A stretch of DNA of 64,000 nt from a virus: the IMG/VR virus record IMGVR_UViG_3300033145_000192, positions 62,001-126,000 of that record; one strand, given 5' to 3'. A model generated the notes under the pieces. The model was not told the DNA's origin, did not search any database, and worked only from the letters and a program-made list of their open reading frames with translations. Both the position numbers and the translations under genes were made by a program. Each line of letters starts with the position of its first letter. Position 1 is the stretch's first letter. Shown here in pieces: positions 1,095-29,579 of the stretch.

Positions 1095-1882
1095 TCCCAG
1101 CCTTCCTTCTTGCACTTCTTTACGAAGGCATCCAAATCCTCCGGTGTCCCCAATCCATGCATTACGTGAATAGGGTAAACACCAATTCGCTTCTGTAGTT
1201 CAATCATTTCGTTGAACACAGGACAAACGTAGAACTCATCGTTGACGCGGATATTCTTGCCCATCATGCGGTGCGCGGCCTCAACAAAGTCCTTTCCGTG
1301 CCTATACCAATAGATGCCAACGGTTGCACGATTGCTGATGACCTTCTTTTCTGCGACCGCAGTCACATATCCACTGCATGAGTCTACCTTTGCGTAGCTC
1401 CACTTTGGATGTGTAGCGTGGAAGGTGGCCATCGTTGCGTCCAATCCGCGAATTGCGGCATCGTTAATCATGTCCTGTATGTTGTCGCTCTCCTGCCACC
1501 TCACACCGATGTTTTCGAAGTTTCGCAACCAGACAACCTTCGACATGTCATTCCACACAGTCATTTGGTCACTGTTGGCAATGATAAGCGGCTCGTCTGT
1601 GTTGATTCTATCCTCTGCCAACAGAACGGTGCAAGCTGCCCCTTCAGTGATTTCATCTACGTAAATCACATTGGTCGCAAAGCTCATGTGTTGTTTTATG
1701 TAGCTTTCATGCTCTCGTCTGGCCAAGAAAATGAAGCGATATGGCTCATAGGGCGAGAGATTCTCTGTTACGTGCTCAATCATACTGCGGCCACACACGT
1801 CGATAAATGGCTTGGGCACCAGATATCCGGCGTCCGCAAAGCGACTGCCTCTGCCAGCCATAGGTATTACGATATTAAGCAC
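1088..1882 (-). CDS. Sugar-phosphate nucleotidyltransferase
   Basis: A 264-residue protein of the NTP-transferase family, which activates a sugar 1-phosphate to a nucleotide sugar. The signature is at the N-terminus: NIVIPMAGRGSRF followed by the conserved PKPFIDVCGRSMIEHV, matching the G-x-G-x-R-F...PK-P nucleotide-binding loop. The length suits a minimal catalytic domain without a left-handed beta-helix acyltransferase domain. The start is a GTG at 1882 preceded by GGAGG, overlapping the end of the glutamine synthetase gene by 8 bases. The substrate cannot be told; glucose-1-phosphate or a related hexose phosphate is typical. It would feed the neighbouring epimerases and glycosyltransferases. 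Confidence 0.85.
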   Translation of the reverse strand: MLNIVIPMAGRGSRFADAGYLVPKPFIDVCGRSMIEHVTENLSPYEPYRFIFLARREHESYIKQHMSFATNVIYVDEITEGAACTVLLAEDRINTDEPLIIANSDQMTVWNDMSKVVWLRNFENIGVRWQESDNIQDMINDAAIRGLDATMATFHATHPKWSYAKVDSCSGYVTAVAEKKVISNRATVGIYWYRHGKDFVEAAHRMMGKNIRVNDEFYVCPVFNEMIELQKRIGVYPIHVMHGLGTPEDLDAFVKKCKKEGWEW

Positions 1883-2864
1883 AGCACACCTCCATTAGAT
1901 ATTTCGTTATCTGATATGGGTCCGCATTTGCTCCTGGGCGACGGTCTTCGATGTATCCACCGTCACTTTGCTCCACATGCACAGGAATCCTAACAGATGC
2001 AGACCTGTCCCCAATTCCCCACTTGTATTTGTCCCAACTGCAAGTTTCATTGTCTCCAGTGAGCCTGCGCTTATAGTCGTGTCCATACACGTCGGGAAAT
2101 CCATTCTTCATAAAATCAACCGCTAACACCTCTGCTGCGTCTCTACATGCGGCAAATCTATTCCTCATTTCAACAGTGGAGAAATTCGTATGTGCTCCAG
2201 CGCCATTCCAGTTTCCACCAACGGGCTTGGAGTCTAGCTTAATCGTTACGCCATGATTCTCGGCAATACGATAAAGAAGATAACGAGCCAGCCACAGATG
2301 GTCAGATACTATCAGTGGGCTCTCTGGTCCAATCTGGAACTCCCACTGTCCTGGCATTACCTCGGCATTAACGCCAGCTATCATAAGGCTGGCCTTAACG
2401 CACGCCGCTAGATGTTCTTCTACAATCTTGCGTCCAAATGCTTCATCTGCCCCAACTCCACAATAGAATGGACCCTGTTGAGCGGGATATCCGCCTTCTG
2501 GCCAACCCAATGGAGTGCGGCCACAAAACATAGTATACTCTTGCTCTATGCCAAACAGTGGTTCAAGTCTACTAAAGGAATGATATGTTTTCACCATGCT
2601 ATGTCTATAGTTGGTGGCAGACGGAGTCCCAAAATAGTTACATACCTCGCATAGCGCCAATAAGTGTGGCCGACCGCGTAACGGGTCACCAATCACATAG
2701 ACTGGTTTTAGAATACAGTCTGATATTGTGCCTTCGGCTTGACCGGTGCTAGAGCCATCGAACGTCCACTCTGGAACATCGTCACTGGTAATAACTCTGG
2801 TCTTTGCTCTTAGCTTTGGAACTGGTTTAGTCCCATCAATCCAGATATATTCGACAAATTTCAT
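1875..2864 (-). CDS. glnII: Glutamine synthetase, type II (GSII)
   Basis: This 329-residue protein matches the eukaryotic/actinobacterial/rhizobial GSII family, which makes glutamine from glutamate, ammonia and ATP. Visible signatures are WTFDGSSTGQA (residues 33-43), the EQEY glutamate pair (107-110), NAEVMPGQWEFQIG (166-179), NWNGAGAHTNFST (218-230), GDNETCSWDKY and IEDRRPGANADPY near the C-terminus. All look intact and in order, and the length is close to the family norm of about 350. It does not look like type I GlnA, which is about 470 residues. ATG at 2864 overlaps the TGA of the upstream GDPD-like gene. Finding it inside a sugar operon suggests supply of glutamine, or amidation of a sugar or amino-acid substituent; the second role is inference. 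Confidence 0.93.
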   Translation of the reverse strand: MKFVEYIWIDGTKPVPKLRAKTRVITSDDVPEWTFDGSSTGQAEGTISDCILKPVYVIGDPLRGRPHLLALCEVCNYFGTPSATNYRHSMVKTYHSFSRLEPLFGIEQEYTMFCGRTPLGWPEGGYPAQQGPFYCGVGADEAFGRKIVEEHLAACVKASLMIAGVNAEVMPGQWEFQIGPESPLIVSDHLWLARYLLYRIAENHGVTIKLDSKPVGGNWNGAGAHTNFSTVEMRNRFAACRDAAEVLAVDFMKNGFPDVYGHDYKRRLTGDNETCSWDKYKWGIGDRSASVRIPVHVEQSDGGYIEDRRPGANADPYQITKYLMEVCCA

Positions 2865-4586: not shown

Positions 4587-5215
4587 TTTTTATCTCGTAT
4601 TGGCAAATCGGGTTGGCCTGTTTCCATGTAGGAACTGGCTCTAGGCGCGATTCGCTTATAGTTATGATTCATGATTGGGACTGCGTGAAAACACGCTCTA
4701 CAGAAGTCGTCCTTTTTCTCAAAGTCAATGACCTTCTTTATGTTGCCAAACTTGGCATTACTTAACATTCTTCTGAGACCTGCTTGATTTGGGGCCCACC
4801 AACAAGATTCTTCATCAAGAAATGTCATGATTGGACGGTTACCACTCAGATAGAGCTTTGTCTCCAACACAAGAAGTCCCTTCGTTATCCTTCTTAGTCT
4901 AGATAGGAGCGACATAGGATTCTCTACATGATAGAGGACGCCATTACATGAAACAACGTCATATTCCATTATTCGTAGGAATGATTCCGAAAAGATATCA
5001 AGTTGAACAAAGTCAAAGCCAAACTTGGCAATATTCCTTTTCAGACCTTCACATACACACATGTCAATCCCAATGGCGTGTTTTGCACCTCGCCTAAGAG
5101 CCTCTACGCACAGTGAACCATCCCAACAGCCAACCTCACAGAAGGTCTTTCCCTCCATGTCGATAGGCATATTGAATAGCTTCCATTTTTTGCTCAATCC
5201 CGAAACTGTTGTCAT
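4583..5215 (-). CDS. SAM-dependent methyltransferase (class I)
   Basis: A 210-residue class I methyltransferase. Motif I is CEVGCWDGSLCVEAL near residue 27, followed by the acidic GIDMCV loop that would bind the ribose of S-adenosylmethionine, and VVSCNGVLYHVENP resembles motif IV of the tRNA mo5U34/CmoB-like and sugar methyltransferases. It is flanked by two sugar-nucleotide oxidoreductases with ATGA-type overlaps on both sides, so sugar O- or N-methylation is the likely role. A small-molecule or tRNA target is not excluded. Confidence 0.75.
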   Translation of the reverse strand: MTTVSGLSKKWKLFNMPIDMEGKTFCEVGCWDGSLCVEALRRGAKHAIGIDMCVCEGLKRNIAKFGFDFVQLDIFSESFLRIMEYDVVSCNGVLYHVENPMSLLSRLRRITKGLLVLETKLYLSGNRPIMTFLDEESCWWAPNQAGLRRMLSNAKFGNIKKVIDFEKKDDFCRACFHAVPIMNHNYKRIAPRASSYMETGQPDLPIRDKK

Positions 5216-6018
5216 TTCAGTCTCATGTGCTCAAAAACAGTGGTGCGATAGAGGTCGTTGTCCTTGACTATAGTGCGGAAGATTTGTGCGTCAATGCCTA
5301 ACCCCTCTGCCAGTCTGGCGAAAGCCGCTGTGTCCTTCGGGAGACACACGCCGCCGAAGCCACGGAAATTCTCGTTGCAATCCAGGTAGAGATTTGTCAT
5401 TGTTGGTCGCGCCACAGCCGCGCTTTTAATTTTCGAATAGTCAGCCCCAAGTTTCTGGCATACCTCATAGAAGCCATTGGCAAATATGACCCTCATGGCA
5501 TTGAACACGTTCGAGAAGTATTTGGTCAGTTCTGCCTCTGTTGGAGACATCTTTACGAACTTCTGAGGATAGTGTCCGTGTGCCTCTTTGACCAAATCAA
5601 ACATGTGACTTGCAAACGGCCCGCTAACGCCAATAACACAGACATCATGGTGTTCAGTGAAGTCGCTAATGGCGTGTCGTTCACGCAAGAACTCTGGAAC
5701 AAAACAAATCATCGTTGGAGCGTATGTGTCAACTAGCATCTCTGTAAAGCCAGGAACAGTCGTTGATTTCACAACGATTACGCCCTTATAGTAGATTGCC
5801 ACCAGGTCTTCAATCACCCTTTCGACAATCGACGTATCACATGACCCATCTGCTGACTCCGGGGTCGGAACACAGATAAAGCACACCTCTGTATCTAGAA
5901 CGTCAAGAAGCTGTGTTTCCAGCACAATATCATGGACTCGAACCTCGTGGCCCAATTTCTCCATTCCATATTTCACAGCGCCACCAACCATACCAACGCC
6001 TACAATGCCTACCTTCAT
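5212..6018 (-). CDS. Short UDP-glucose/GDP-mannose dehydrogenase-like protein
   Basis: A 268-residue relative of UDP-sugar dehydrogenases, which oxidise the C6 alcohol of a nucleotide sugar to a uronic acid. The Rossmann loop VGIVGVGMVGGAV is at the N-terminus, the central helical domain follows, and the catalytic motif GGVCLPKDT places the nucleophilic cysteine at residue 225. The family normally continues for 130-180 residues with a UDP-binding Rossmann domain, and this domain is absent: the protein ends 43 residues after the cysteine and the next gene begins there. Either a natural short form, or one that pairs with another subunit. The TGA/ATG overlap at 6015-6018 shows the start is coupled to the upstream gene. 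Confidence 0.82.
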   Translation of the reverse strand: MKVGIVGVGMVGGAVKYGMEKLGHEVRVHDIVLETQLLDVLDTEVCFICVPTPESADGSCDTSIVERVIEDLVAIYYKGVIVVKSTTVPGFTEMLVDTYAPTMICFVPEFLRERHAISDFTEHHDVCVIGVSGPFASHMFDLVKEAHGHYPQKFVKMSPTEAELTKYFSNVFNAMRVIFANGFYEVCQKLGADYSKIKSAAVARPTMTNLYLDCNENFRGFGGVCLPKDTAAFARLAEGLGIDAQIFRTIVKDNDLYRTTVFEHMRLK

Positions 6019-6440
6019 TTGTCACCCCTATATAGTTTTCCAGTTAGCTTAGGTCCAAGCTGAACCTCTCTGCCTGTTAGTTTGGACTTTACTCTGTAAC
6101 GACAAGTCCATAGGTCCGTTCTCATATGGTCACTGTGTCCACACTTACAGCACATTACCTGCCACCAGCATGGATGCGATGTCATCACTTCGCCATCTTC
6201 TACTAAGTGATAGCAATGTTCACATTCCGGCTCAGGCTTCGCTTCTACTAGGAGAAGTTCTGGCGACCAAGCGTTGTATTTCGAGGCTAATTCCATTATC
6301 GCAGTAGAATTTTCACAGCCACCAAACCTGCCACAAGTGCTACAAGACCAGCAGGCGTAACATCCGGCCTTTGAATAGACCTTTTTTGGCTCTTCGCAAC
6401 AACATGGAAGGCTAACTTTGCCTGACTCTACGGACCTCAT
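6015..6440 (-). CDS. Cysteine-rich putative zinc-binding protein (141 aa)
   Basis: I do not recognise this family. It contains at least fifteen cysteines, including CCCEEP, GCYACWSCSTCGRFGGC, CEHCYHL and MCCKCGH, spaced like several zinc knuckles or ribbons. The ATG at 6440 follows GAGGTAATT and sits 2 bases past the stop of the preceding gene; a longer frame from 6470 is less likely because it lacks this site. Placement between a sugar dehydrogenase and a methyltransferase suggests it works with the glycan enzymes. A metal-dependent scaffold or a nucleic-acid binder are both possible. Confidence 0.65.
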   Translation of the reverse strand: MRSVESGKVSLPCCCEEPKKVYSKAGCYACWSCSTCGRFGGCENSTAIMELASKYNAWSPELLLVEAKPEPECEHCYHLVEDGEVMTSHPCWWQVMCCKCGHSDHMRTDLWTCRYRVKSKLTGREVQLGPKLTGKLYRGDK

Positions 6441-6442
6441 AA

Positions 6443-7132
6443 TTACCTCGATGTCAAAATCATGGCACAATTTCGTTTCATGCCTTTTCCTAGACCTATA
6501 TCTAATTCTTCACTCAATGATACTATTCTCTCTGGACCGACATCGGTATACAGGAGAATATCATGTGTCTTGCCTATTGCCTTCTCAAACAAAAACTTCT
6601 GTTCGCCAGTGCCTTTTCGGTCACTGTATGGAGACTTCATGTCATGGATGAACACTGGTTTTCTAACTTTGCATAGAAAATTGTTCCAGTAGTATTCAGC
6701 CATGTTCCACGAATGTTGGCAGTCAATAACTATCAAGTCAGACGCCTTGCATGCAGATAGAATTCTGTTTTGGAACTTCTTGTTCATTATGTTGCATACG
6801 GTGAACGGGATTTTGTCAAGTCCACCGGACAAGGCACCTTGCTCACTTAGCTCTAGCGAAAACGCACGCACACTGATTCCCATTAGTCGCATCAGTATTG
6901 TGCTTATGCCTACGCCAAACTCTGTTACAGTCTTGGCCCCAATATGTCGTATGTAGCAAGACAAGATATGAAGGTCAAGAGGACACATCGCATCGCCAAT
7001 GAAGAAACCAGGAGTATATGGAATTACGTTACCAATATCAATTAAATTGGCCAAATTCTCATCATGTGGAATCTTGCAACAGCCTGGAACACTAAATGCA
7101 AGCCCCTCCTTTTGTCTTTGGTTAGGCGTCAT
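6443..7132 (-). CDS. Putative class I methyltransferase-like protein
   Basis: A 229-residue protein with a degenerate SAM-binding core: TVTEFGVGISTIL near residue 68 resembles motif I, LIVIDCQHSW near residue 135 resembles motif IV, and VFIHDMKSPYS follows as in TylF-like and FkbM-like methyltransferases where an HD or DD pair binds metal. The start ATG at 7132 is preceded by AAGGAGC. It is less similar to the other methyltransferases in this block than those are to each other. The substrate is probably a sugar or glycan but that is inferred from context only. Confidence 0.58.
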   Translation of the reverse strand: MTPNQRQKEGLAFSVPGCCKIPHDENLANLIDIGNVIPYTPGFFIGDAMCPLDLHILSCYIRHIGAKTVTEFGVGISTILMRLMGISVRAFSLELSEQGALSGGLDKIPFTVCNIMNKKFQNRILSACKASDLIVIDCQHSWNMAEYYWNNFLCKVRKPVFIHDMKSPYSDRKGTGEQKFLFEKAIGKTHDILLYTDVGPERIVSLSEELDIGLGKGMKRNCAMILTSR

Positions 7133-7137
7133 GCTAT

Positions 7138-7725
7138 TTAGCTCCTTAGTGGATTGTTCTTTGCATGCTGAACGATATCTGGGTCAATAACTGCCTCCAG
7201 TGCTTCAACAGTCCCGCCACCAAGGAATTCACACAAGCCACCAAGAACCCCTGCATCCTTCTCTATGACCTTCTGGAATGGCAGTGAGTAAGCCTTGCAT
7301 CTAGTGGATTTCAAGTATCTCTGTGTCTCGTTTTGTATCCTGTTGAACGTCCCACAAATGGCAGGAATTGCCTGCGGCTTCCATCCAGTATACAGCTTAT
7401 TGCCACTAGCAATGCCCTCCTCTGGGTCTCTACTAGTCACAATGACGTGGACATCAAATCCTAGCTTCTGCAAAACAGGTATCCACTGCGCATACAGGTG
7501 AATCAGCTTAACGGCGTCTGCACCCTGCTCCTCTAGCTTTAGAATGGCTGGAGGAATGGCGTGTCTTTGAGCATTACTGAGCGGATTCTCGTTGTAGCCG
7601 CTTCGAAGTCCAAACTCCTGCATCGGATTGCACTCTCCGAAGCTGTAGCCACACGTTTTTACCAACTCGCAAGCTAGCGAAGTCCCACTTCTGCCTGGCC
7701 CGCACACAACAACAAACTTCTTCAT
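7138..7725 (-). CDS. Sulfotransferase-like P-loop protein
   Basis: A 195-residue protein starting MKKFVVVCGPGRSGTSLACELV. The GPGRSGTS loop is the 5'-phosphosulfate-binding signature of PAPS-dependent sulfotransferases, and VHVIVTSRDPEEG near residue 90 matches the 3'-phosphate-binding segment with its Arg-Asp. The length is at the short end of the family. The ATG at 7725 follows GAGGG and is preferred to an upstream start at 7773 because the P-loop strand begins directly after it. One of four such proteins in the block, close to the APS kinase gene that would make their donor. Nucleotide kinases share a similar loop and are the main alternative. Confidence 0.68.
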   Translation of the reverse strand: MKKFVVVCGPGRSGTSLACELVKTCGYSFGECNPMQEFGLRSGYNENPLSNAQRHAIPPAILKLEEQGADAVKLIHLYAQWIPVLQKLGFDVHVIVTSRDPEEGIASGNKLYTGWKPQAIPAICGTFNRIQNETQRYLKSTRCKAYSLPFQKVIEKDAGVLGGLCEFLGGGTVEALEAVIDPDIVQHAKNNPLRS

Positions 7726-7733
7726 GTCTTCCC

Positions 7734-8468
7734 TCATAGCTTTGTAAAGTATCCATGGCACTGATAGCCGCAATACAATTGACTGATACCCTCTGGCTTG
7801 TCAGCAAAGAACTCATCACAAGCCTTCTTCACTCCAGGCAGCGCATTGAGCACGTTGAGGTTCCTGTAGTTCTTCTTCCTCAACGAACCTAGTGAATCAA
7901 AAACCGGCTTAACGATGACTGGGTCGCAATAGTCATCTACTATGCAAATCCCGCCACTTGAGAGCCTCGGATATACCAACTCAAGCGATTCCATGATTGA
8001 GGTATAGAAGTCACCATCAAGATGGGCGAAAACGATTTCAGATGGAATGTCGCTGTCGGTAATCTCGTTAAACCACATTCTGTGAATAATCGGGTGCCTG
8101 AGCTTGAATTCGTCAAATAGCTCAAATATGTGGGCCTCATCGAACCCCTCTCCAGCTATGAGATGCTTTGGGGCATTCGGATTCGCGGACATTTGTCCTG
8201 CTCGGAATGGCGTATGGCCGTCTTCCGGACGCTTGCCAGGTAGGCCCTCAAACGAGTCGTATAGATGGACTTCTCTGTCGATTTCAAGAACATCAAGCAC
8301 CTTCTGCATGATTCTCGCAGTTTTGCCCCTATGACATCCAAGCTCAACGATATGCCCAGGAATGTTCAGCAACATGACCCTCATCAACAGATGATAGATG
8401 TTCATGGCCTGTTCCATGTTCACCATACCGGATGTCTTGACCATATCTACAATGAAGTTGTTATCCAT
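7734..8468 (-). CDS. TylF/MycF-family O-methyltransferase
   Basis: A 244-residue member of the macrocin O-methyltransferase (TylF) family, metal-dependent enzymes that methylate sugar hydroxyls. Signatures are IVELGCHRGKTARIM near residue 38, the LYDSFEGLP stretch characteristic of the family, and FAHLDGDFY with ICIVDDYCDP providing the metal-binding aspartates. Length is typical. ATG at 8468 overlaps the stop of the neighbouring methyltransferase-like gene in a TAATG arrangement. It is the best-assigned methyltransferase of the block and supports the idea that the glycan made here carries O-methyl groups. Confidence 0.85.
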   Translation of the reverse strand: MDNNFIVDMVKTSGMVNMEQAMNIYHLLMRVMLLNIPGHIVELGCHRGKTARIMQKVLDVLEIDREVHLYDSFEGLPGKRPEDGHTPFRAGQMSANPNAPKHLIAGEGFDEAHIFELFDEFKLRHPIIHRMWFNEITDSDIPSEIVFAHLDGDFYTSIMESLELVYPRLSSGGICIVDDYCDPVIVKPVFDSLGSLRKKNYRNLNVLNALPGVKKACDEFFADKPEGISQLYCGYQCHGYFTKL

Positions 8469-9037
8469 TAGTATACCTTGTATCCCTTAATGCTTCCCTG
8501 CTTTGTATCCTCATCACCACCATACAGACATTCAAACCCAAATAATTCCATCTCTCCACATCTTGTGGATTTGGATAGATGCGTTTTATCCTTGTCATAT
8601 CCACTGCCCCAAGGCAAATGAATGATGCATAGTTTCTTTGCAACTATGTCGATGCGCCTGAATGTATCAGCCCATTCGTCTTTGTAGATGTGCTCTGGAC
8701 CGGCAGACCAAAACACAAGGTCAAAGCTATCCTCATCAAACACCTCATCAATCAGCCTTACGTCTCCAGCCACAACGTCTCGTATGTATGGGTTATTCAC
8801 CTTTTTTTCTATGTATTCATCGAATAGCTCTAGTGTGACGAAATCAAGGTCACCAGGAAAAACTTCATCAAGAAAGCGCAACCACCTGATTGAATCAACA
8901 CCTCCATGTATGCCCAAGCCCACATTCAGAATAGACTTGATACCCATATCCTTGACTGCCTCGCGAATTTCGTTCCACCCATAGCCAAGCATGACTTTCT
9001 TCCACTTGTCGAAATCTACCTCTTTTCTCTCAATCAT
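8468..9037 (-). CDS. Methyltransferase-like protein, paralogue of 12486-13166
   Basis: A 189-residue protein with a class I methyltransferase outline: ILNVGLGIHGG (motif I-like), VTLELFDEYI (motif II-like) and DLVFWSAGPEHI (motif IV-like). It shares a clear set of matching blocks with the protein at 12486-13166: NVGLG-HG, GDVR-IDE, GPEHI-DEWADTF, IHLPWG-YD and DTKQ. The two are therefore paralogues within one operon. Both lack an obvious catalytic residue, so they may methylate different positions of a glycan or be a methyltransferase-fold protein with another role. ATG at 9037 overlaps the upstream stop by 8 bases. Confidence 0.65.
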   Translation of the reverse strand: MIERKEVDFDKWKKVMLGYGWNEIREAVKDMGIKSILNVGLGIHGGVDSIRWLRFLDEVFPGDLDFVTLELFDEYIEKKVNNPYIRDVVAGDVRLIDEVFDEDSFDLVFWSAGPEHIYKDEWADTFRRIDIVAKKLCIIHLPWGSGYDKDKTHLSKSTRCGEMELFGFECLYGGDEDTKQGSIKGYKVY

Positions 9038-9728
9038 TATATGCTCCGAAGTATTGCTCGTTCAGACTCAAAATGTCCGATGGTATTGATTTTATTCTTT
9101 CTCTCACTTCTGGAGCCTTATACCTATCCAAAATCTTCATCTTGGACGGATTGGTCCTGAAGTCCAGTTTGTCGAAGCTACTTCCTCCTCCACTCCCCAT
9201 GATGTATTCACGCCCCGCATCTGTAAATGGAACTGAGGCACCAAGCATCGCGCACACCTCTTCGAATATAGTGCGACGATAATCTAAGTCTATATGCCAT
9301 TTCGGAAAGTTCACAGTCACACTTTGGTCACCAAACGTCTTATGTCCAAGTGCGTGAAGAATATAGTCCTTCCATACTGCAAATAGCTTGGAGTGTCCGA
9401 TATTCCCATGTTTGAGAATACTAGCAAAGTGATTTTTGATATCGCGAACCACGATTACACGAGGAAGATTAGGACATGTGGGGGTATCAATCCTGCCCTC
9501 AAGGCCAACTCCTAGGAGATTGATAGGGTCGGCAAGCGGCCTTTTAACGTGTTGCTCTCCGTTCGCATACCACACTTTGAGATGGGCGCTAGGGCCGTAG
9601 TTATTCAAAAACAGTCCGAGCCCTGGGAATTGGCAGAATAACCAGTGAGATACTCCGTGCTGGCCGCACCTGGGATAGCCTAGCACAGCAAGTGATTTCT
9701 TGTGCTCCAGCCCTGCTATCTTGCTCAT
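9030..9728 (-). CDS. Sulfotransferase-like protein
   Basis: A 232-residue protein. LAVLGYPRCGQHGVSHWL near the N-terminus matches the sulfotransferase 5'-phosphosulfate loop (usually PRSGT or PKSGT) in a divergent form, and RVIVVRDIKNHFASILK near residue 90 matches the 3'-phosphate-binding segment with its Arg-Asp and a following serine. The next gene in this operon is the APS kinase fusion, with a 4-base overlap, so donor synthesis and transfer are translationally coupled. The divergent loop lowers confidence; the context raises it. Confidence 0.62.
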   Translation of the reverse strand: MSKIAGLEHKKSLAVLGYPRCGQHGVSHWLFCQFPGLGLFLNNYGPSAHLKVWYANGEQHVKRPLADPINLLGVGLEGRIDTPTCPNLPRVIVVRDIKNHFASILKHGNIGHSKLFAVWKDYILHALGHKTFGDQSVTVNFPKWHIDLDYRRTIFEEVCAMLGASVPFTDAGREYIMGSGGGSSFDKLDFRTNPSKMKILDRYKAPEVRERIKSIPSDILSLNEQYFGAYND

Positions 9729-10459
9729 TCTGCCGCCCTCTGCTCAAGGAACTCAAGCACCTTGTTGACGCTAAATTCGATTGACTCGTGCTCTGTGTTG
9801 ATTATCAAATCGGGGCTAGCTGGCTCCTCATAAGGTGCGCTTGGGTGAAATCCCGTAAGGTCCTTAATCTCGCCATCCATTGCTTTTTTATACAGACCCT
9901 TTGGGTCTCGCTTGGCGCACACACCAACCGGGCACTTGACGTAAACCTCGATGTAGTTGTCGCACAACTTTCGCGCATAGTCTCTTTGGCACTTGAATGG
10001 GGAGATGAACGAGGCCAGCACGATATGGTCGATTGCCAGGTAGCTCGCCACATGCACCGCTCGCTTGTTGTTCTCGTCCCTGTCGTCCTTAGAGAATCCA
10101 AGGTGCTTACTAAATGTAGCCCGCGCAACATCTCCGTCAAGGCGCTTGACCTGCAACATCTTTGCCTGTAATTTCGCCGCTATGGCATCTGCTAGAGTCG
10201 TCTTGCCCGACCCACTCAGACCTGTAAACCACACCACAACTCCGTCAGTAGTAACGCATTCACGACCAAAATTCACGCTATTCCACGCCCTTTCATGGAG
10301 ATAATACAACAAGGACTTTACCACCACATCCACTCCTATGAGTGCCGTAGCAATACCCCATGAGCCAGTAATGGCCCCACCGATGATAAAGAGTGCTAAC
10401 GTGGCCCAGAGTCGCCATGAGATTGTTTTGACTATTGACCTTTTGGAAGTTTCAACCAT
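9725..10459 (-). CDS. cysC: DUF2061 membrane domain fused to APS kinase (CysC)
   Basis: A 244-residue two-domain protein. Residues 5-62 match DUF2061, with two hydrophobic helices and the closing HERAW motif. Residues 73-240 are an adenylylsulfate kinase, which phosphorylates APS to PAPS: Walker A GLSGSGKT (80-87), LDGD (107-110), GFSKDDRDENNKR (121-133), the SPFKCQRDYAR substrate segment and RDPKGLYKKA are all intact. The ATG at 10459 with GAGGAG five bases upstream is preferred to the GTG at 10465. No ATP sulfurylase is present in the window, so APS would come from the host. The membrane domain suggests PAPS is made at the membrane. It overlaps a sulfotransferase-like gene on each side. Confidence 0.93.
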   Translation of the reverse strand: MVETSKRSIVKTISWRLWATLALFIIGGAITGSWGIATALIGVDVVVKSLLYYLHERAWNSVNFGRECVTTDGVVVWFTGLSGSGKTTLADAIAAKLQAKMLQVKRLDGDVARATFSKHLGFSKDDRDENNKRAVHVASYLAIDHIVLASFISPFKCQRDYARKLCDNYIEVYVKCPVGVCAKRDPKGLYKKAMDGEIKDLTGFHPSAPYEEPASPDLIINTEHESIEFSVNKVLEFLEQRAAE

Positions 10460-11079
10460 TTCCACTCCTCACATTCCATGCTATATACTTCGTCAATGTG
10501 CTTTATATCCTCTTCACTCAACTCTTTCATATATGCCTTAGTTTCGTAGTAGTGCTTCTTGCGCTCGAACATACCGTTAGAAGTGCGGCCTTTGTAGTGC
10601 TTTGCAATGTCAATGCATATGCCGCCGGAAGTGAGGGGAACTCCATACATTTCAACTATACTTCGAAGAATTTCGCGTGGGTGACCCATCATATCATCGT
10701 GCTGGATGTTAACCCAGTTTGGAACTATCGACTCGATGGTTCTAAACGTCTCTAATACATGATTGCGCATAGCTATCATGTCGCTAAAGTCGAAACCTTC
10801 TACACCCCAAGGCTCACGCATGGCCCGCGTTACGGAAAGCCCGCTCCTGATTACTCCATGCGTTTGACCAGTCATAGAGCAAATCCAAGCCCATATGTTC
10901 TTATGAATGTGTAGGAATAGCGTATCGCTCCAGTCTCTTTCTCTAAGAAACCTCAGATTCACACCATGCTTACTCCCGTGCTTACTCCCAACCTCTATAT
11001 CGAAGTTGGCAGCACATAGTCGTTGAAGTATGTTTGTCCCACTACATTGTAGTCCAAATACCTGGATATACTTAATCAT
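10432..11079 (-). CDS. Sulfotransferase-like protein
   Basis: A 215-residue protein starting MIKYIQVFGLQCSGTNILQ. The GLQCSGTN loop corresponds to the PAPS 5'-phosphosulfate loop, and DTLFLHIHKNIWAWICSM corresponds to the 3'-phosphate segment in a family where a Lys-Asn replaces the more common Arg-Asp. The ATG at 11079 overlaps the upstream stop by 8 bases; a start at 11121 would overlap that gene too far. It overlaps the APS kinase gene by 28 bases. Acceptor unknown. Confidence 0.65.
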   Translation of the reverse strand: MIKYIQVFGLQCSGTNILQRLCAANFDIEVGSKHGSKHGVNLRFLRERDWSDTLFLHIHKNIWAWICSMTGQTHGVIRSGLSVTRAMREPWGVEGFDFSDMIAMRNHVLETFRTIESIVPNWVNIQHDDMMGHPREILRSIVEMYGVPLTSGGICIDIAKHYKGRTSNGMFERKKHYYETKAYMKELSEEDIKHIDEVYSMECEEWKWLKLPKGQ

Positions 11080-11722
11080 CGCCTTCCGATTCTTCCCGCT
11101 CACCAACCATCTTCTTTGCAAAATCGTAAAGCTTCATATCCCACTCATTGTAGCCAAGCACCAATTCTACGTCCTTCTTAGGAAGGTTTTTCACTTTATG
11201 ATTCTTTGTTTTGTTGTCATGTCCTAATCCACCTAGGCCATAGTCAGCCCTAAGTCGTCTAGCAAGCTTCCCTAGATTATCTGTGAACCCCACATACTTA
11301 ACAAGCTCAAGATTCCTAACTGCATCGTCATAGTGACATTCATGAATGGGCCCATGGTAGAGTAATCCAAGACCACACAGTTGCCGAACAGCCAAATTCT
11401 GCACATTCCAAGCACAAAGCTGCTCCATAAACTCAGCAAGCGGAGGCTTCTTCTTTGGAGCCTTTCTGTAATTATATGCAAACTTACTAAATACTCTTTC
11501 CGCTGGATGACGCAATATGGTTACATACTCACAACTGTCTGGATTATACTGATGAATGCCATATGGAATATGTCCAAGTAGTGCTTTTCTTTTCCGTTTA
11601 CGAGCCATCTCCATTCGTTCTTTCAAGTCGCTTTGATGCGAAACAATCATCGGATTAAGCACACTCATCATGCCTCTTAGTGAAATTCCGCCAGTTTTCG
11701 CTATGTGGATGAAGATAAGCAT
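11072..11722 (-). CDS. Sulfotransferase (Sulfotransfer_2-like, carbohydrate type)
   Basis: A 216-residue protein and the clearest sulfotransferase here. FIHIAKTGGISLRGM at residues 4-18 is the 5'-phosphosulfate loop of the carbohydrate sulfotransferases related to heparan 2-O- and chondroitin/HNK-1-type enzymes (usual form HxPKTGGTS). VTILRHPAERVFSKF near residue 70 is the 3'-phosphate site with the expected Arg-x-Pro and serine. Family members transfer sulfate from PAPS to a sugar hydroxyl. The stop overlaps the start of the next sulfotransferase-like gene, and the APS kinase is two genes downstream. Confidence 0.85.
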   Translation of the reverse strand: MLIFIHIAKTGGISLRGMMSVLNPMIVSHQSDLKERMEMARKRKRKALLGHIPYGIHQYNPDSCEYVTILRHPAERVFSKFAYNYRKAPKKKPPLAEFMEQLCAWNVQNLAVRQLCGLGLLYHGPIHECHYDDAVRNLELVKYVGFTDNLGKLARRLRADYGLGGLGHDNKTKNHKVKNLPKKDVELVLGYNEWDMKLYDFAKKMVGEREESEGDD

Positions 11723-12492
11723 TACCTATCTTCTCTCTCCCCACGAACGAAGTGATACGTAATACAGTCACCAACGAGATAGTTTGGAATTCCAGCATGC
11801 TGATATTTGTCATGAATGATGACATCGCCAGTTATCCCACCAACGATTGTGGGCATTGGACCGAACTTCTTCCAGTATTTCCTGTCCTGCAACCAGCTAC
11901 ATCCATCAGTCCTAGGAGGTCCGTTAATCATCCTAGTAGGTTTCTTCCAGTGCTCTAGGCACTCTAGAATGGTATATGGTCCAGGCTTCACTATCTCCTC
12001 ACAAAACTTAACGAACTCGTCTTCCTTGTAGGTGTCATATGTGAGCCCAAAATCGCGGCAAAAATGTCTGGAGCCAGGGTGACTAAGCATGGACTCTACG
12101 GTCTGCGCCTGTAGGATTGCATCTCCTTGGAGGTCGTTGTAGCAATCGAGTATGGTAGCGAACGAACCTGGGAACCAAGTCTGGTCACTTCCACCACGGA
12201 AAACTAGTGGATGCTCGCCAAGTGTGTAGCCCAAGTTCCAACAGTCATAGAGGCGTTTGATGAAAGGCTTGCTCGGGTCCTCGTAGTGTAGATGATACTT
12301 GATGTCATGCTGCTCACAAATAGCAACAAGCTCGTCTGTTACTGCTTGGGGAATCTTCGCATTGTAGTAGATGATGACGTTAAACGTCCACACGTCTCGT
12401 GTAAGTCCAGCGTTGCGTAGGACATTGTCTACATGTCCCCTAAAGAGTCCAGGGTCTCTACCAATAATCGTATAGTAATCCATCGTTAACAT
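11722..12492 (-). CDS. Putative glycosyltransferase (GT-A-like)
   Basis: A 256-residue protein. The N-terminal half is arranged as alternating strands and helices (YYTIIGRDPG, FNVIIYYNA, IKYHLHYED), followed by PLVFRGGSDQTWFPGSF, where a GSDQ stands in the place of the metal-binding DxD of GT-A enzymes. The ATG at 12492 has GGGGA five bases upstream and overlaps the preceding stop; an alternative ATG lies at 12483. I cannot assign a CAZy family. It could equally be a non-catalytic relative. Confidence 0.55.
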   Translation of the reverse strand: MLTMDYYTIIGRDPGLFRGHVDNVLRNAGLTRDVWTFNVIIYYNAKIPQAVTDELVAICEQHDIKYHLHYEDPSKPFIKRLYDCWNLGYTLGEHPLVFRGGSDQTWFPGSFATILDCYNDLQGDAILQAQTVESMLSHPGSRHFCRDFGLTYDTYKEDEFVKFCEEIVKPGPYTILECLEHWKKPTRMINGPPRTDGCSWLQDRKYWKKFGPMPTIVGGITGDVIIHDKYQHAGIPNYLVGDCITYHFVRGEREDR

Positions 12493-13166
12493 ACTAATCC
12501 CCGCTTCCAGCCATACATACATGACTGCTTCGTGTCCCTTATTCCAGTATATCTTACCTTAAACCCAAACTGTTCCATTTCATCCCTCATAACGGACCCA
12601 GAAAGGTGCTGGTCTCCCAGTGGGAATTTCTTGTTTTGGTTATTGTCGTATGCCTTACCCCACGGAAGATGGATAACAATAATCTTGCCGAGCTTATCTA
12701 ACTTGGCGAAAGTATCCGCCCACTCATCCCTATTGATATGCTCGGGTCCATGGGACCATAGAATAAGGTCAAATGGTCCTATGTCCAACTCGTCAATCTT
12801 GCGAACATCTCCAAGATGACACTTGTCGATGTATTCTCGGTTTGCTCCCTTGACGGCCCTCATCTTTTTAATTCGGCTCGCAACCAACTCTAGGTTTTCA
12901 AATCTATTTATGTCGAAAAGCCAGTTGTATACCTTGAGCCACTTGATGGTTTCCCCATGCTCTCCCAGTCCCACATTCAGCAACGAATTGATTTCTGGAA
13001 CCGCTGTAGCAATCTCCTTATACATTTCAGCAAACCCCACCCCTTTGCCTATGCCTCTTTTTGGATTAGACTTTGGTGGAAACTTCTTGTGTGCGTTATC
13101 CCAACATTTCGCGAATATCTGAGAGCGCATAAGGATTTTCTTTACTTCTGCCGGGTCTAACAACAT
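12486..13166 (-). CDS. Methyltransferase-like protein, paralogue of 8468-9037
   Basis: A 226-residue protein that shares ordered blocks with the 189-residue protein at 8468: LLNVGLGEHG, HLGDVRKIDEL, LWSHGPEHINRDEWADTF, IVIHLPWGKAYD and DTKQS. The outline is that of a class I SAM methyltransferase. The chosen ATG at 13166 follows GGAGCATTTCA and overlaps the wecB gene by 71 bases; a later ATG at 13130 has no good ribosome site. Function is inferred from fold and context only. Confidence 0.62.
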   Translation of the reverse strand: MLLDPAEVKKILMRSQIFAKCWDNAHKKFPPKSNPKRGIGKGVGFAEMYKEIATAVPEINSLLNVGLGEHGETIKWLKVYNWLFDINRFENLELVASRIKKMRAVKGANREYIDKCHLGDVRKIDELDIGPFDLILWSHGPEHINRDEWADTFAKLDKLGKIIVIHLPWGKAYDNNQNKKFPLGDQHLSGSVMRDEMEQFGFKVRYTGIRDTKQSCMYGWKRGLVC

Positions 13167-14316
13167 TGAAATGCTCCAGTATGAATGGGTCAAGTATAGG
13201 AATGGAGCTTCCAAGCTCTACCCTGTTGAAATATCTTCTCTTGCCATCAAGCCTCTTTACAAGGTTCTCGACAATGCGCTCCGAACTCTTACCATCTCCT
13301 AGAGTAAAATCTTCATTGAGCGTGCCAGTCAATGCTAGCTCCGTAGCTTCTTCAATCGCACTACTGTATGGGCTACTCATAAACGTGATGCCAGACTTAA
13401 ATGTCTCTGGCCTTTCTGTTGCTTCTCTCGTTACAACACATGGAGTCCCAAGTAGCGCCGAAACCTCCTGGTTGGTTCCGCTGTCAGTATACTCAATCAT
13501 CGCATTGGCCTCAAGGCGAATGAAATCGAAAAATCCCAATGGAGGCATTGTGTGGAAGTGTTGCGGATACTTGATTCCTAGCTTCTTCAGTCTCGGCATC
13601 TCAATGAGTATTACCGGAATTCCAAGTTTCTTGGTTGTCTCTCCTACAGTTCGGATAATTCCCTCTGCCATTCCCTTTATCTCTACGTGCTCATTCCTAT
13701 GCAACGTCATCAACGCATACTCGCCAGGTTTGCATGGAAGTGGCGCAATTCCCTTGTGCATCCAATCCAATTTATCTCGGTGTTCATTCACCACATCGAC
13801 AATTACATTTCCAACAACCTCAATCCTAGTTGGCTCAACGCCTTCTCTTACTAGGTTAATCTTGTAGTCATGCTGATACACATACAGGATATCACTTACT
13901 CTATCAATCAAAACTCTGTTGCGCTCCTCTGGCATCTTCCAGTTAAAAGAACGCATACCTGCTTCGATGTGTGCGATAGGAATACCCATCTTTAGCGGAG
14001 CTACGCATCCAATAGTGGCGTTCGCATCTCCTAGGAACAAACAAACGTCTGGTTGAAGCTTCTCAAGCTCTTGCCCCAATTGCATAATCAATTGGCTATG
14101 CTGCCCAAAATGACTATCGGCCCTAGTTTGCAACTGAATGTCTGGGCGTGGCACGCCTAACTCATCAAAGAAGATGTCACTCAGATTATGGTCATAGTGC
14201 TGACCTGTATGTAGGAATGTAGCCTCTACGTTTGGATGCTCCTTAAGCAACCTCAAAACAATTGATGTCCTAATGAAATCTGGGCGGATGCCCAGAACTA
14301 CTGCAACCTTGTGCAT
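13096..14316 (-). CDS. wecB: UDP-N-acetylglucosamine 2-epimerase (non-hydrolysing, WecB/WbjD-like)
   Basis: A 406-residue GT-B-fold epimerase that interconverts UDP-GlcNAc and UDP-ManNAc or the corresponding deoxy-sugars. Signatures: VVLGIRPDFIR at the N-terminus, HTGQHYDHN (36-44), HIEAGMRSF with PEERNRVLIDRVSD, and SGTNQEVSALLG followed by TREATERPETFKSG, the conserved UDP-binding stretch. Length is normal (about 370-400). The AGMRSF...PEERNR wording is closer to the WbjD/FnlC subgroup than to classical WecB, and the RmlD-like gene next to it fits that subgroup's N-acetylfucosamine or related pathway. Confidence 0.92.
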   Translation of the reverse strand: MHKVAVVLGIRPDFIRTSIVLRLLKEHPNVEATFLHTGQHYDHNLSDIFFDELGVPRPDIQLQTRADSHFGQHSQLIMQLGQELEKLQPDVCLFLGDANATIGCVAPLKMGIPIAHIEAGMRSFNWKMPEERNRVLIDRVSDILYVYQHDYKINLVREGVEPTRIEVVGNVIVDVVNEHRDKLDWMHKGIAPLPCKPGEYALMTLHRNEHVEIKGMAEGIIRTVGETTKKLGIPVILIEMPRLKKLGIKYPQHFHTMPPLGFFDFIRLEANAMIEYTDSGTNQEVSALLGTPCVVTREATERPETFKSGITFMSSPYSSAIEEATELALTGTLNEDFTLGDGKSSERIVENLVKRLDGKRRYFNRVELGSSIPILDPFILEHFNVVRPGRSKENPYALSDIREMLG

Positions 14317-14323: not shown

Positions 14324-15172
14324 TCAAATTCGGCGCATATCCCGTTCGTATTCCGCCATCTCTTCTATCATTCCTGCGAAGTCTTGCGGAATAACCAAAT
14401 CATTCAATCCTCTCTCCGTCCTTAGAGAGCGGTTGATACCAATGTCTGTTTCGTGCGGATTTACCTTAATTTCGAACCCGAACTGCCTAATGATTTCTGA
14501 TACCAACTCAAACTTGGTAACATCAGAAGAGAATACGTGAAATAGGCTAGGCTCATACAAGTCTTCAAATATGATGTCATAAATGATGCGCCCCAACTCA
14601 AGTGTCGTCACTCCGTTCCAAACGTGGTTCGTGAACCCGTTTATCTCTTTTCCATCTTGGCTTCTCAGCCACTCCAATAGGCTCCGACTTCTGCCGCCAA
14701 ACTCCGGACCAATGATGCTTGTCCGCAACACCATGCAGTCATCTGGTTCACCCAAACTCTTGGACTTGCCATACGAATCTAATGCATTGTGCTTGTCGGT
14801 TTCCTTGTATTCACCCCTCCAGCCGTCATAGACGCAATCTGTCGTAATGTGAACAATTCTCGTATTTGTTAGTGTTCCCCACGTTGATAGTTGACGCGGG
14901 AAGATAGCATTTGTATAGATAGCATTCGCCACATCCGTAGGATTCGCAAACATTGGCTTAATCGCACCAATGCAGTTGATGACATAATCAACTCTGAACC
15001 CTAGTAGCGTCGAAAGCTTAGTTCCTATCTGATTGAGTGTCCTTGGCTCAATAACCAACGCCTCTCTTCCGTAGGCATTGATATCCATGTAAGTCCCCAC
15101 GGACTTTGACTTGAGCGTATGTTCTACCATATGCCCAAGCATTCCAGTTCGACCCAATATCGCTATCTTCAT
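14324..15172 (-). CDS. RmlD-like nucleotide-sugar reductase (SDR)
   Basis: A 282-residue short-chain reductase of the dTDP-4-dehydrorhamnose reductase group. The cofactor loop is AILGRTGMLGHMV, the catalytic pair is YGKSK, and IHITTDCVYDG is the family's conserved TDYVF-like strand. Length fits RmlD (about 290). It lies between wecB and an RmlC-like cupin, and the ATG at 15172 overlaps the cupin stop by 4 bases. By analogy to capsule loci it may reduce a 4-keto UDP-sugar rather than dTDP-sugar, since no RmlA/RmlB pair is obvious in the window. Confidence 0.85.
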   Translation of the reverse strand: MKIAILGRTGMLGHMVEHTLKSKSVGTYMDINAYGREALVIEPRTLNQIGTKLSTLLGFRVDYVINCIGAIKPMFANPTDVANAIYTNAIFPRQLSTWGTLTNTRIVHITTDCVYDGWRGEYKETDKHNALDSYGKSKSLGEPDDCMVLRTSIIGPEFGGRSRSLLEWLRSQDGKEINGFTNHVWNGVTTLELGRIIYDIIFEDLYEPSLFHVFSSDVTKFELVSEIIRQFGFEIKVNPHETDIGINRSLRTERGLNDLVIPQDFAGMIEEMAEYERDMRRI

Positions 15173-15618
15173 CTGTTTTCCACACCAAAGATGATGTTGA
15201 TGTCTTCGTCTGAGACTTTCATTCTGTGGTCGTCCTTCTTCACTTCTTCGAAGCTAAGAGTAGAATAAACGAGCATTCTGGTATCTTCCTCAAGCGTTAC
15301 GGTTCCGTTATACCAACCTGGTGGAATCCAAATAATGCCTGGCTTCCTATCGCTTAGTGTCGCTACTGTAACCTCGGCTGGATTGTCCATCCTTCTGGCT
15401 GCAATCTTGGCTGTCCCCTTAATCACATGGATACCAGTCCAGCCCTTTTTGTGTCCGTGCCATGCACGAATCAGTCCAGAATTCCAATTCTGGATTACGT
15501 AAGTTCTGCTGATATCAAACTGTATCTCGTGGTTTCCGATGTTGTCTACTGGACAGTAAACACTACCTCTATCATCAACATACAATGGAAAGTATACGAC
15601 TTCTGGCTGCCTATCCAC
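15169..15618 (-). CDS. RmlC/WxcM-like cupin (sugar 3,5-epimerase or isomerase family)
   Basis: A 149-residue single-domain cupin. YVIQNWNSGLIRAWHGHKK matches the RmlC-type active site, in which the His of RAWHGH is the catalytic base, and PGIIWIPPGWYNG is the conserved C-terminal strand. The start is a GTG at 15618 overlapping the preceding stop by 8 bases. The adjacent RmlD-like gene suggests the two act one after the other on the same 4-keto sugar. In the CapF enzyme of capsule loci an SDR and a cupin are joined in one chain; here they are separate. Confidence 0.8.
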   Translation of the reverse strand: MDRQPEVVYFPLYVDDRGSVYCPVDNIGNHEIQFDISRTYVIQNWNSGLIRAWHGHKKGWTGIHVIKGTAKIAARRMDNPAEVTVATLSDRKPGIIWIPPGWYNGTVTLEEDTRMLVYSTLSFEEVKKDDHRMKVSDEDINIIFGVENR

Positions 15619-16567
15619 TCATCACCTCTCCTACATATTGTGCGTTGTGGAATCTCTTGTCCCACACGTCAGCTATTCTGCCCTCATTCATGACCTTAAT
15701 CATTTCAGAGACTCCAGTATGCACTGATATGCCTGCGATAAATCCACTATTCTTCGCCTTGGCATTGTCAACTCTATAGTTTCTCAAGTCCTCAAACTTC
15801 ATATCAGTTCTGGTAATGTCACCCTTACCGGCACACAGAATGATACGTTCTGCTAGGTCAATGATTCTCATGTTCGACCTTGAAAGCACCCATGTTCCAT
15901 TGTCGGGCAACACTGCTGCTTGCGCGAATATCTGGCCAGCATCACGGACATGAAGGAGCGGCCTCCATTGCTCTCCACCGAATACAGTCAACGGCTTACC
16001 TTGCATTACCCTATATGTAAGGATGTTCGCCACAAGGTCGCACCTAATCCTGGCATGCTCGGTGCTCAGACCAAATAGAGTGCCCAGGCGGAAAATCGCG
16101 TGAGATGGAACCTTGCTTACTGCGGCCTCAGCATTTAGCTTTGTCCCTGCATACAAACTAAGAGGATTGGTGGCACTCTCTTCGTCTAAGAGGTCATTGT
16201 TAGCTCCGTAGACGCTGCACGTTGAGGCAAATATCATTCGCACACCGAACTTGGTGCAGAGGTGAGCAATCCTATTGGTTGCCAATTCATTTACATCGAC
16301 CGTGAATGCCTGATTTACCTGACATGCGCCATCGCCAACGATTCCAGCCAAGTGAACTAGTGAGTCGTAATTCTCACTTTTCATACAAAGACGCATGAAG
16401 GTATAGTCAGTGATATCGCCACGAATGAATTTAACACCACGACGCATATACATTCCGCCATACATGAGGTTGTCCAAGACTGTGACCTCGTGACCATCAT
16501 TGACTAGATGTTCAGCAACACAATCTCCAATATATCCCGCCCCACCCGTTATGAGTATCTTAGCCAT
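15611..16567 (-). CDS. NAD-dependent nucleotide-sugar epimerase/dehydratase
   Basis: A 318-residue extended SDR. ILITGGAGYIGDCV is the NAD loop, FASTCSVYG holds the catalytic serine strand and YAGTK the Tyr-x3-Lys pair. The body resembles UDP-glucose 4-epimerase and dTDP-glucose 4,6-dehydratase-type proteins, and the conserved RPLLHVRDAGQ region binds the nucleotide. The ATG at 16567 is favoured over a GTG six bases upstream on ribosome-site spacing. It is the first of four consecutive sugar-nucleotide genes (this one, cupin, RmlD-like, wecB). Confidence 0.87.
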   Translation of the reverse strand: MAKILITGGAGYIGDCVAEHLVNDGHEVTVLDNLMYGGMYMRRGVKFIRGDITDYTFMRLCMKSENYDSLVHLAGIVGDGACQVNQAFTVDVNELATNRIAHLCTKFGVRMIFASTCSVYGANNDLLDEESATNPLSLYAGTKLNAEAAVSKVPSHAIFRLGTLFGLSTEHARIRCDLVANILTYRVMQGKPLTVFGGEQWRPLLHVRDAGQIFAQAAVLPDNGTWVLSRSNMRIIDLAERIILCAGKGDITRTDMKFEDLRNYRVDNAKAKNSGFIAGISVHTGVSEMIKVMNEGRIADVWDKRFHNAQYVGEVMSG

Positions 16568-16766
16568 CTCCACCCGCCTTTATGTGTCGTAGAAAGTAAA
16601 GCGTCTTCCTTGTTGGATAACAGTTCGAAAGTGCCTTCTTGTCAAGGGGTAAACTTATTACACAAACAGGTCCACCACAATAGCAGACCTGTTCGCTTAA
16701 AGGCATTATCTCTTTACAATCAGCACACTCTCTAGCCCAAAAGGTGCTTTCTGAAGAACCATGCAC
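16560..16766 (-). CDS. Small zinc-ribbon protein (68 aa)
   Basis: A short ORF that fills the space between the protease gene and the epimerase gene, with a GTG start at 16766 and a stop overlapping the epimerase start by 8 bases. CADCKE near residue 14 and CYCGGPVC near residue 28 look like a four-cysteine zinc site. The GTG start lies 35 bases inside the protease gene; an ATG at 16706 would delete the first cysteine pair. I do not recognise the family. Similar small zinc proteins occur at 49-228 and 6015-6440. Confidence 0.5.
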   Translation of the reverse strand: MHGSSESTFWARECADCKEIMPLSEQVCYCGGPVCVISLPLDKKALSNCYPTRKTLYFLRHIKAGGDG

Positions 16767-17604
16767 AAATCAAAACTCCTAGTATCTCAAAAACCATAAG
16801 TGGATAGTATGGATTGATGTTAATTGGCTCACTTTGCTCTTCATAGATAAAGGCGAGTCCTCTTTCATCCAAACATGCTTTAATGTCTGCTGCTGGCACA
16901 TACTCGCACCAGTTGGCCAAAGGAACGTCATTTCTGGTTCTCATGTGGAGCATCATCATTCCATTCTCCGTTGGAACCATTAGTCTGATGTTGCCGTGCA
17001 TCTGTCCAAGTCCAAGCCTCGTAACGATTCCAGCGAGTTCTTGGTCCTGACTCCAGATTCCACCTCCACTATTACCTCTCCATACGGCTAGTCCTGCCCT
17101 GGCTAGTCCACCAACATCTGAAGATGCTCGACCTTCTGAAATGTTTGGGTCCGACCCACTAGTGCATCCGATGGCAAATACTCTTTCACCAAACTCAACG
17201 TCTGTTAGATGAATGTCGCTCTCTGGTGGATTTGGAACTTCTAGGACTGCAATGTCGTTGCCAGCATACGTTCCACAAAATACAACGGAAGCGGACTGAA
17301 TGTCTGCCACAGAGCCAAAGAACTCTACATCAAGATTCTTCTCCTCTGGGTCTAGTCGCTCGTTCATGTTGATATCGACACAATGCGCTGCTGTTAGGAT
17401 GTATCCTGTATTAAGTGTTACGCCTGTCCCATAAATCGTTCCTTGTGGGTGTGTCATTGTAACGCGGCACGTTGAGTGATACGCGCCCCACACAGAATCC
17501 TTCACAGCAATGTTTGAGGGCTGTGGCCAGAAGATGACCATTGCGGCAATGAGCCATCCTACTAGAACGGTAAAGGCAGTAAGCAAAAGTGTCTTTCTCA
17601 TCAT
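16732..17604 (-). CDS. Membrane-anchored trypsin-like serine protease
   Basis: A 290-residue chymotrypsin-fold protease. The triad is visible: His74 in LTAAHC, Asp117 in GNDIAVLEV and Ser179 in WRGNSGGGIW. Residues 5-26 form an N-terminal membrane helix and residues 268-285 a second near the C-terminus, so the catalytic domain should sit outside the cytoplasm or be held in the membrane. After the active His comes DINMNERLDPEE, an EF-hand-like D-x-N-x-N calcium loop. It is the only protease in a block of glycan genes. It may process a host surface protein or a virion protein; the sequence does not say which. Confidence 0.85.
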   Translation of the reverse strand: MMRKTLLLTAFTVLVGWLIAAMVIFWPQPSNIAVKDSVWGAYHSTCRVTMTHPQGTIYGTGVTLNTGYILTAAHCVDINMNERLDPEEKNLDVEFFGSVADIQSASVVFCGTYAGNDIAVLEVPNPPESDIHLTDVEFGERVFAIGCTSGSDPNISEGRASSDVGGLARAGLAVWRGNSGGGIWSQDQELAGIVTRLGLGQMHGNIRLMVPTENGMMMLHMRTRNDVPLANWCEYVPAADIKACLDERGLAFIYEEQSEPININPYYPLMVFEILGVLICAWFFRKHLLG

Positions 17605-28874: not shown

Positions 28875-29092
28875 TACTTCTCTCCAAGTTCCTTACCGTA
28901 TGTCTTCTTGAACCAGTCTCCAGCCCTAACCTTCGGCATACCAAAGGTGGCACCAGGAGCTATAATCCTTCGACATAGTCCAATGCATCTGGAATCTTCG
29001 CAGTTGTATAGAATCTTCGCATCGTGTGACATTGGAAGCTTTAAGCTGTATTTGGCTTTACACCTCTCACACTTGTATACGTAGTTAGGCAC
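28874..29092 (-). CDS. FmdB-like zinc-ribbon protein (72 aa)
   Basis: A 72-residue protein beginning MPNYVYKCERCKAKY with a second CEDSRCIGLCRR stretch, the layout of the FmdB/zinc-ribbon regulator family (YxYxCxxCxxxFE...C). The start is a GTG at 29092 overlapping the previous stop by 8 bases. The function of phage members is not established; some may bind DNA. Small proteins of this kind are frequent in phage replication blocks. Confidence 0.68.
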   Translation of the reverse strand: MPNYVYKCERCKAKYSLKLPMSHDAKILYNCEDSRCIGLCRRIIAPGATFGMPKVRAGDWFKKTYGKELGEK

Positions 29093-29564: not shown

Positions 29565-29579
29565 TTTCAGTGCTCCAAG

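Follow-up and report, generated by a model that had tools for sequence, protein, structure and literature searches.

The window analysed here is a stretch of 64,000 nucleotides that corresponds to positions 62,001 to 126,000 of the virus record IMGVR_UViG_3300033145_000192, which has 177,375 bases and may be incomplete. Between its positions 7138 and 11722 lie a gene for a DUF2061 domain fused to a CysC-type adenosine 5'-phosphosulfate (APS) kinase and several sulfotransferase-like genes, here named by their lower coordinate. Taken as a whole, the probable explanation is that the phage turns host APS into 3'-phosphoadenosine 5'-phosphosulfate (PAPS) for the sulfation of an acceptor, likely a glycan. 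This is a viral variant of known sulfation chemistry, and the variant is what is new. The locus was picked out by a first-pass annotation of the sequence, whose observation is partly confirmed and whose interpretation is partly supported: the kinase, the making of PAPS, and the need for host APS stand, while profiles back only one or two of the four sulfotransferases.

The kinase fusion and the supply of APS

The fusion protein matches DUF2061 (PF09834) at residues 11–62 (E 1.5e-15; 57.8 bits, cut-off 23.1) and the Pfam APS kinase family at residues 75–223 (E 7.4e-52; 175.9 bits, cut-off 21.1). It scores 199.1 bits against the NCBIfam apsK equivalog model TIGR00455, for which the cut-off is 138.7. 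The kinase motifs comprise the P-loop GLSGSGKT (82–89), DGD (110–112), DRxxNxxR (128–135; here DRDENNKR), FISP (153–156), RDPKGLYKKA (186–195), and LTG...PYEEP (203–215), and solved APS kinases align residue by residue along the whole kinase domain. Two hydrophobic stretches lie within residues 10–56. The description of an intact APS kinase joined to a two-helix DUF2061 is thus borne out, and the motifs and family cut-offs also back the statement that this enzyme family makes PAPS. Assignment as a nucleotide kinase is rejected because the apsK models score far ahead of other P-loop models, and a degenerate kinase is rejected because every APS kinase motif is intact. The fused protein very probably makes PAPS from APS. 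Its location at the membrane is plausible from hydropathy, and it is a tentative suggestion that tethering by DUF2061 matters.

Profile searches of the 177-kb record, possibly incomplete, found no Sat, CysD, or CysN domain, and the claim that ATP sulfurylase is missing and that host APS would be needed holds across this whole record. The only CTP_transf_like protein (record positions 22791–23093) was rejected as an ATP sulfurylase, since its sequence reads as a sugar-type cytidylyltransferase. Neither the PAPS reductase gene cysH nor any other cys reduction gene was found in the record.

Sulfotransferase-like genes

Gene 11072 is convincing as a sulfotransferase. It scores 22.2 bits against Pfam Sulfotransfer_2 (cut-off 22) with both PAPS-binding motifs present, and it matches a Sulfotransfer_2 hidden Markov model (HMM) built here from phage proteins (E 1.1e-6); hhalign gives 63%. 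In a PDB search it reached heparan 3-O-sulfotransferase at an E-value of 0.08 only. Gene 10432 passes the Sulfotransfer_3 cut-off by 0.4 bits (27.4 against 27), has a Lys in place of the usual 3'-phosphate-binding Arg in its second motif, and has a 55%-identical orthologue in a sibling phage that lacks a Pfam match. Gene 7138 misses the Pfam sulfotransferase cut-off (Sulfotransfer_3 at E 0.08), and gene 9030 has no sulfotransferase family match in the Pfam scan and no homologue was found for it. PDB profile searches with 7138, 9030, and 10432 gave chance matches only, and hhalign of the same three against viral sulfotransferase profiles gave no signal. Scans of viral contigs confirmed no close relative of 9030, 10432, or 11072, and tblastn of 7138, 10432, and 11072 against phages and plasmids gave no match.

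Four sulfotransferase-like genes had been annotated, and a motif pair is indeed present in all four, but profiles back only one or two of them. The assignment of 11072 is secure by profile, while the other three are not securely assigned. The same profile searches placed the kinase, DUF2061, and 11072 above their cut-offs, 10432 barely so, and 7138 and 9030 below.

Elsewhere in the record there are three further genes of this kind. A paralogue of 7138 lies at positions 141981–142616 on the minus strand (E 8.5e-16), and two NKWYS/Sulfotransfer_1-like proteins are encoded at 27760–28785 (plus) and 134775–135512 (minus). One of the latter two sits, by reading, among virion-assembly-like genes.

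Conservation of the locus

Genes along 7138–11722 overlap their neighbours by 1 to 50 bases and therefore very probably form one operon. The sibling phage fragment L085 carries, in order, the homologue of 11722, 10432 (55%), the APS kinase (54%), a methyltransferase, and 7138 (77%). Its kinase is free-standing and lacks DUF2061, and counterparts of 9030 and 11072 were not found within the fragment. Between the window and L085, the kinase and the two sulfotransferase-like genes have ratios of nonsynonymous to synonymous change (pN/pS) of 0.18–0.35 with synonymous sites saturated, so that these genes are under purifying selection. Since the genes overlap, and since the kinase and two sulfotransferase-like genes are kept in L085, the locus is not a product of chance. 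The kinase tree pairs the window with L085 (support 98/98) and puts its three DUF2061 fusions in three separate positions, although the length of the Thiomicrorhabdus branch prevents a reliable placement.

Viral APS kinases and their neighbours

A scan with the kinase alone found relatives in 139 viral contigs, and the 80 best were retained. These 80, minus near copies and with a few phage records added, form the 57 loci compared. The sample favours kinases related to that of the window, and many of its records are fragmentary. The search for the gene set in other phages shows that it has relatives in many of them and is not a one-off.

Of 50 non-redundant viral APS kinase records, 28 contain at least one Pfam sulfotransferase match with E<=1e-3, although some of these matches are weak. 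The nearest one lies at most 3 kb from the kinase in 15 of these 28 records, against 2.4 expected, and none of 20,000 shuffles gave so high a count. Among records of at least 90 kb, 10 of 16 have a sulfotransferase within 3 kb (0.7 expected). The expected values come from placing the kinase at random inside the same records. As neutral controls for the overall prevalence of sulfotransferases, RecA gave 2 and ThyX 14 relatives, and random placement was used instead. CysH and Sat-type ATP sulfurylase are over cut-off in none of the 50 records, and PAPS_reduct is over cut-off in two, both of which are CysD beside CysN-CysC fusions. The clustering with sulfotransferases and the lack of CysH in these records support the proposal that the PAPS would serve sulfation and not cysteine synthesis. 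ATP sulfurylase is present together with the kinase in viral contigs L132 and L125. Contig L132 (160 kb) comprises at 6337–11283 a sulfotransferase, CysD, CysN-CysC, and, by reading, a TauE/SafE-like transporter.

The commonest neighbours of the kinase at the 57 loci are a NadM-like nucleotidyltransferase (22), DUF2061, which adjoins the kinase (19), and epimerases dependent on nicotinamide adenine dinucleotide (NAD; 16). UDP-sugar dehydrogenases are near the kinase in 6. The nucleotidyltransferase is a small protein of 120–155 amino acids (e.g., L102:10524–10991, L131:10515–10931, and L005:1265–1621), and in two of the 22 cases it is a distant NadM/Nudix protein located some 3 kb from the kinase. 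A row of kinase, nucleotidyltransferase, HAD, and DUF2061 recurs in L019 and L045, and L005 has sulfotransferase, kinase, nucleotidyltransferase, and DUF2061 without HAD. The kinase is fused to the nucleotidyltransferase in L129 (9926–11002) and also in the isolated Stenotrophomonas phages Suzuki and DLP6, so this related gene is carried by phages that can be cultivated. A Sulfotransfer_4-like gene lies two genes upstream of the fusion in Suzuki (L265:2564–4324), where all are annotated as hypothetical, and a NADAR-like gene, with annotation taken from the relative Bhz60, adjoins the fusion gene.

The nucleotidyltransferase scores far below cut-off against models of nicotinamide mononucleotide (NMN) adenylyltransferase, and among solved structures those nearest to it are NMN adenylyltransferases. 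One member matches the ATP sulfurylase model at 4.6e-4, below cut-off. It is possible but doubtful that many phages have a self-contained sulfation module of nucleotidyltransferase, APS kinase, HAD, DUF2061, and sulfotransferases, with the window phage as its host-dependent form. In such a module the nucleotidyltransferase would make APS and thereby represent a third type of ATP sulfurylase, the HAD phosphatase may remove 3'-phosphoadenosine 5'-phosphate (PAP), and DUF2061 may be a membrane sulfate-supply or scaffold protein. A role of the nucleotidyltransferase in NAD metabolism is a live alternative because of its nearest solved relatives and the NADAR-like neighbour in Suzuki.

DUF2061 in bacteria

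Of the 80 bacterial loci, 36 have CysD close to DUF2061, and the typical arrangement in Campylobacterota is DUF2061-cysH-cysD-cysN. In loci among L163–L242, DUF2061 genes are the first of, or lie within, sulfate-assimilation operons. The domain follows genes reading as cysJ and cysI in Marinilabiliaceae (L163, 8001–8231), and it belongs to a sulfate-assimilation operon in Sulfurovum (L170, 7971–8237). In Thiomicrorhabdus (L235, 1572–2294), CysN precedes a fusion of DUF2061 with an APS kinase that lacks DGD and KGLYKKA and is possibly a pseudo-enzyme. The domain thus accompanies sulfate activation in cells and phages alike. With the same two-domain architecture in Thiomicrorhabdus and with DUF2061 in bacterial cys operons, the fusion is not a phage invention. 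The domain order of L235 is identical to that of the window, but its kinase part is degenerate and the window's is intact. Like the window, the operons of L163, L170, and L235 have a small membrane domain beside sulfate-activation genes. In contrast, cellular DUF2061 operons mostly lack an adjoining APS kinase and lead to reduction rather than sulfation. The literature found gives no sulfur role for DUF2061, for which these results suggest a part in the sulfate activation of phages and bacteria that can be put to the test; in the simplest readings, both putative, it may be a membrane tether or help with the supply of sulfate.

Proposed mechanism and alternatives

The host ATP sulfurylase would make the APS, for which the phage would depend on its host. 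The phage kinase, as its family and motifs predict, would phosphorylate the 3'-OH of this APS, which yields PAPS. DUF2061 would probably hold the kinase at the membrane, near host sulfate uptake and ATP sulfurylase or near a lipid-linked glycan, as suggested by its hydropathy and its repeated position in sulfate-activation operons. One or more of the sulfotransferase-like proteins would then transfer sulfate from PAPS to an acceptor; the likeliest one is a sugar of the island glycan, which may be located on the virion or on the surface of the infected cell. PAP would be removed by a host phosphatase of the CysQ type. The use of the PAPS for sulfation is likely, and the chance that the acceptor is a glycan is about even. 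As a proposal, sulfation of the glycan that the adjacent genes build is plausible.

The kinase could instead boost assimilatory sulfate reduction in the host during infection, with PAPS converted to sulfite and then cysteine. Viral cysC has been read as a gene of this pathway (PMC10914622, PMC9529941, PMC8190135), and the occurrence of DUF2061 within bacterial cysH-cysD-cysN and cysJ-cysI operons is in line with it. This explanation is rather unlikely, as no CysH was found in the 50 viral kinase records, sulfotransferases lie near the kinase much more often than chance predicts, and the window's kinase lies in a glycan island of a record without a cys reduction gene. PAPS could also be made for host sulfotransferases or for 11072 alone, if most of the P-loop neighbours are not sulfotransferases. 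The scores of 7138 and 9030 below every sulfotransferase cut-off, the 10432 orthologue without a Pfam match, and the empty PDB and hhalign searches with these three all point that way. It is nevertheless an unlikely account, because the motif pairs occur in all four genes, 10432 and 7138 are conserved together with the kinase in L085, and 7138 has a paralogue in the same genome. The fusion might even serve chiefly to scaffold host sulfate activation at the membrane or to regulate it, and its kinase activity would then be secondary, as the degenerate L235 protein beside CysN would suggest. The phage kinase retains every motif and the L085 kinase stands free of DUF2061, and such a role is very unlikely.

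Several points weigh against sulfation by the phage. No Pfam sulfotransferase is present in 22 of the 50 viral APS kinase records, many of them fragments, and three of the four sulfotransferase-like genes of the window lack secure profile support. Single-sequence AlphaFold models of 9030 and 10432 are uninformative, with predicted local distance difference test (pLDDT) scores of 33.7 and 32.3. Part of the proximity of sulfotransferases to the kinase could stem from the general tendency of glycan genes to cluster in islands, and the position of bacterial DUF2061 in operons of reductive assimilation could point to assimilation.

Relation to known systems

The viral cysC genes described as auxiliary metabolic genes belong to the same enzyme family as the window's kinase and likewise come from environmental phages, often with large genomes. 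Their published reading is assimilatory, whereas the genomic context in the window points to sulfation. Because no CysH accompanies the viral APS kinases in the sample of 50, the published reading is hard to reconcile with these records and sulfation is easily reconciled. This suggests that viral cysC mostly supplies PAPS for sulfation, probably of a glycan. If so, the process to which a widely reported group of viral 'sulfur cycling' genes has been attributed is the wrong one, and these genes would alter surfaces, adsorption, or immunity to phage and would not feed cysteine synthesis.

Sulfotransferase-family genes are known from other phages, such as phrog_3347 and the Sulfotransfer_3 genes of OM43 phages, and their function has been called unclear (PMC10580990). 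In the literature searched, there is no earlier link between phage sulfotransferases and a phage gene for making PAPS, and no description of the sulfation of phage or infected-cell glycans.

In rhizobial NodPQ-NodH, which sulfates Nod factor, and in Xanthomonas RaxPQ-RaxST, ATP sulfurylase and APS kinase are paired with sulfotransferases. The system proposed here would resemble them in its dedicated PAPS synthesis and in sulfotransferases that modify a secreted product (see also PMC4216712). It differs in that it belongs to a phage, has no ATP sulfurylase in the record, has a kinase fused to DUF2061, and has several sulfotransferase-like genes in a glycan island. Viral contig L132, with its sulfotransferase, CysD, and CysN-CysC, is closer to NodPQ-NodH than the window is.

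Other genes of the window

The features of the operon and of the surrounding glycan island are listed in the table; the island also contains a sugar nucleotidyltransferase and methyltransferases.

Table. Features of the proposed sulfation locus and the surrounding glycan island (window coordinates).
Feature	Position	Strand	Basis or remark
DUF2061::APS kinase fusion (CysC-type), 246 aa	9725..10465	-	Profile matches, motif check, alignment to solved APS kinases
DUF2061 part of fusion	10256..10465	-	Two hydrophobic stretches; KR, R, K, YYxHERxW conserved, common to viral DUF2061 proteins
P-loop GLSGSGKT of kinase	10199..10222	-	Motif
Sulfotransferase, Sulfotransfer_2 type (FIHIAKTGG ... LRHPAERVFS)	11072..11722	-	Pfam, viral HMM, hhalign
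Sulfotransferase-like P-loop protein (GLQCSGTN ... HKNIWAWICS)	10432..11121	-	Marginal Sulfotransfer_3; kept in sibling L085
Sulfotransferase-like by motif alone (GYPRCGQHG ... VRDIKNHFAS)	9030..9728	-	Motif pair read by eye
Sulfotransferase-like by motif (CGPGRSGTSL / SRDP..S)	7138..7773	-	Motif pair by eye; Sulfotransfer_3 below cut-off
TylF-type O-methyltransferase, same operon	7734..8468	-	E 2.9e-24
Methyltransferase-like gene, same overlapping operon	8468..9037	-	Below Pfam cut-off
Protein without a known family (by reading, possibly a glycosyltransferase), immediately upstream	11722..12522	-	82% identical L085 homologue
UDP-GlcNAc 2-epimerase (WecB type), glycan island	13096..14316	-	Profile match
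UDP-glucose/GDP-mannose dehydrogenase-like, short (268 aa), glycan island	5212..6018	-	Profile match
RmlD-like, FdtA-like, and NAD-dependent epimerase genes, glycan island	14324..16573	-	

A glutamine synthetase gene lies within the glycan island (1875–2864, minus strand). A trypsin-like protease with hydrophobic ends is located between glycan genes (16732–17604, minus) and has 66% identity in L085. DNA polymerase III alpha is apparently encoded at 26722–31854 (minus) by two open reading frames (30061–31854 and 26722–28308), which flank dUTPase- and thymidine-kinase-like genes.

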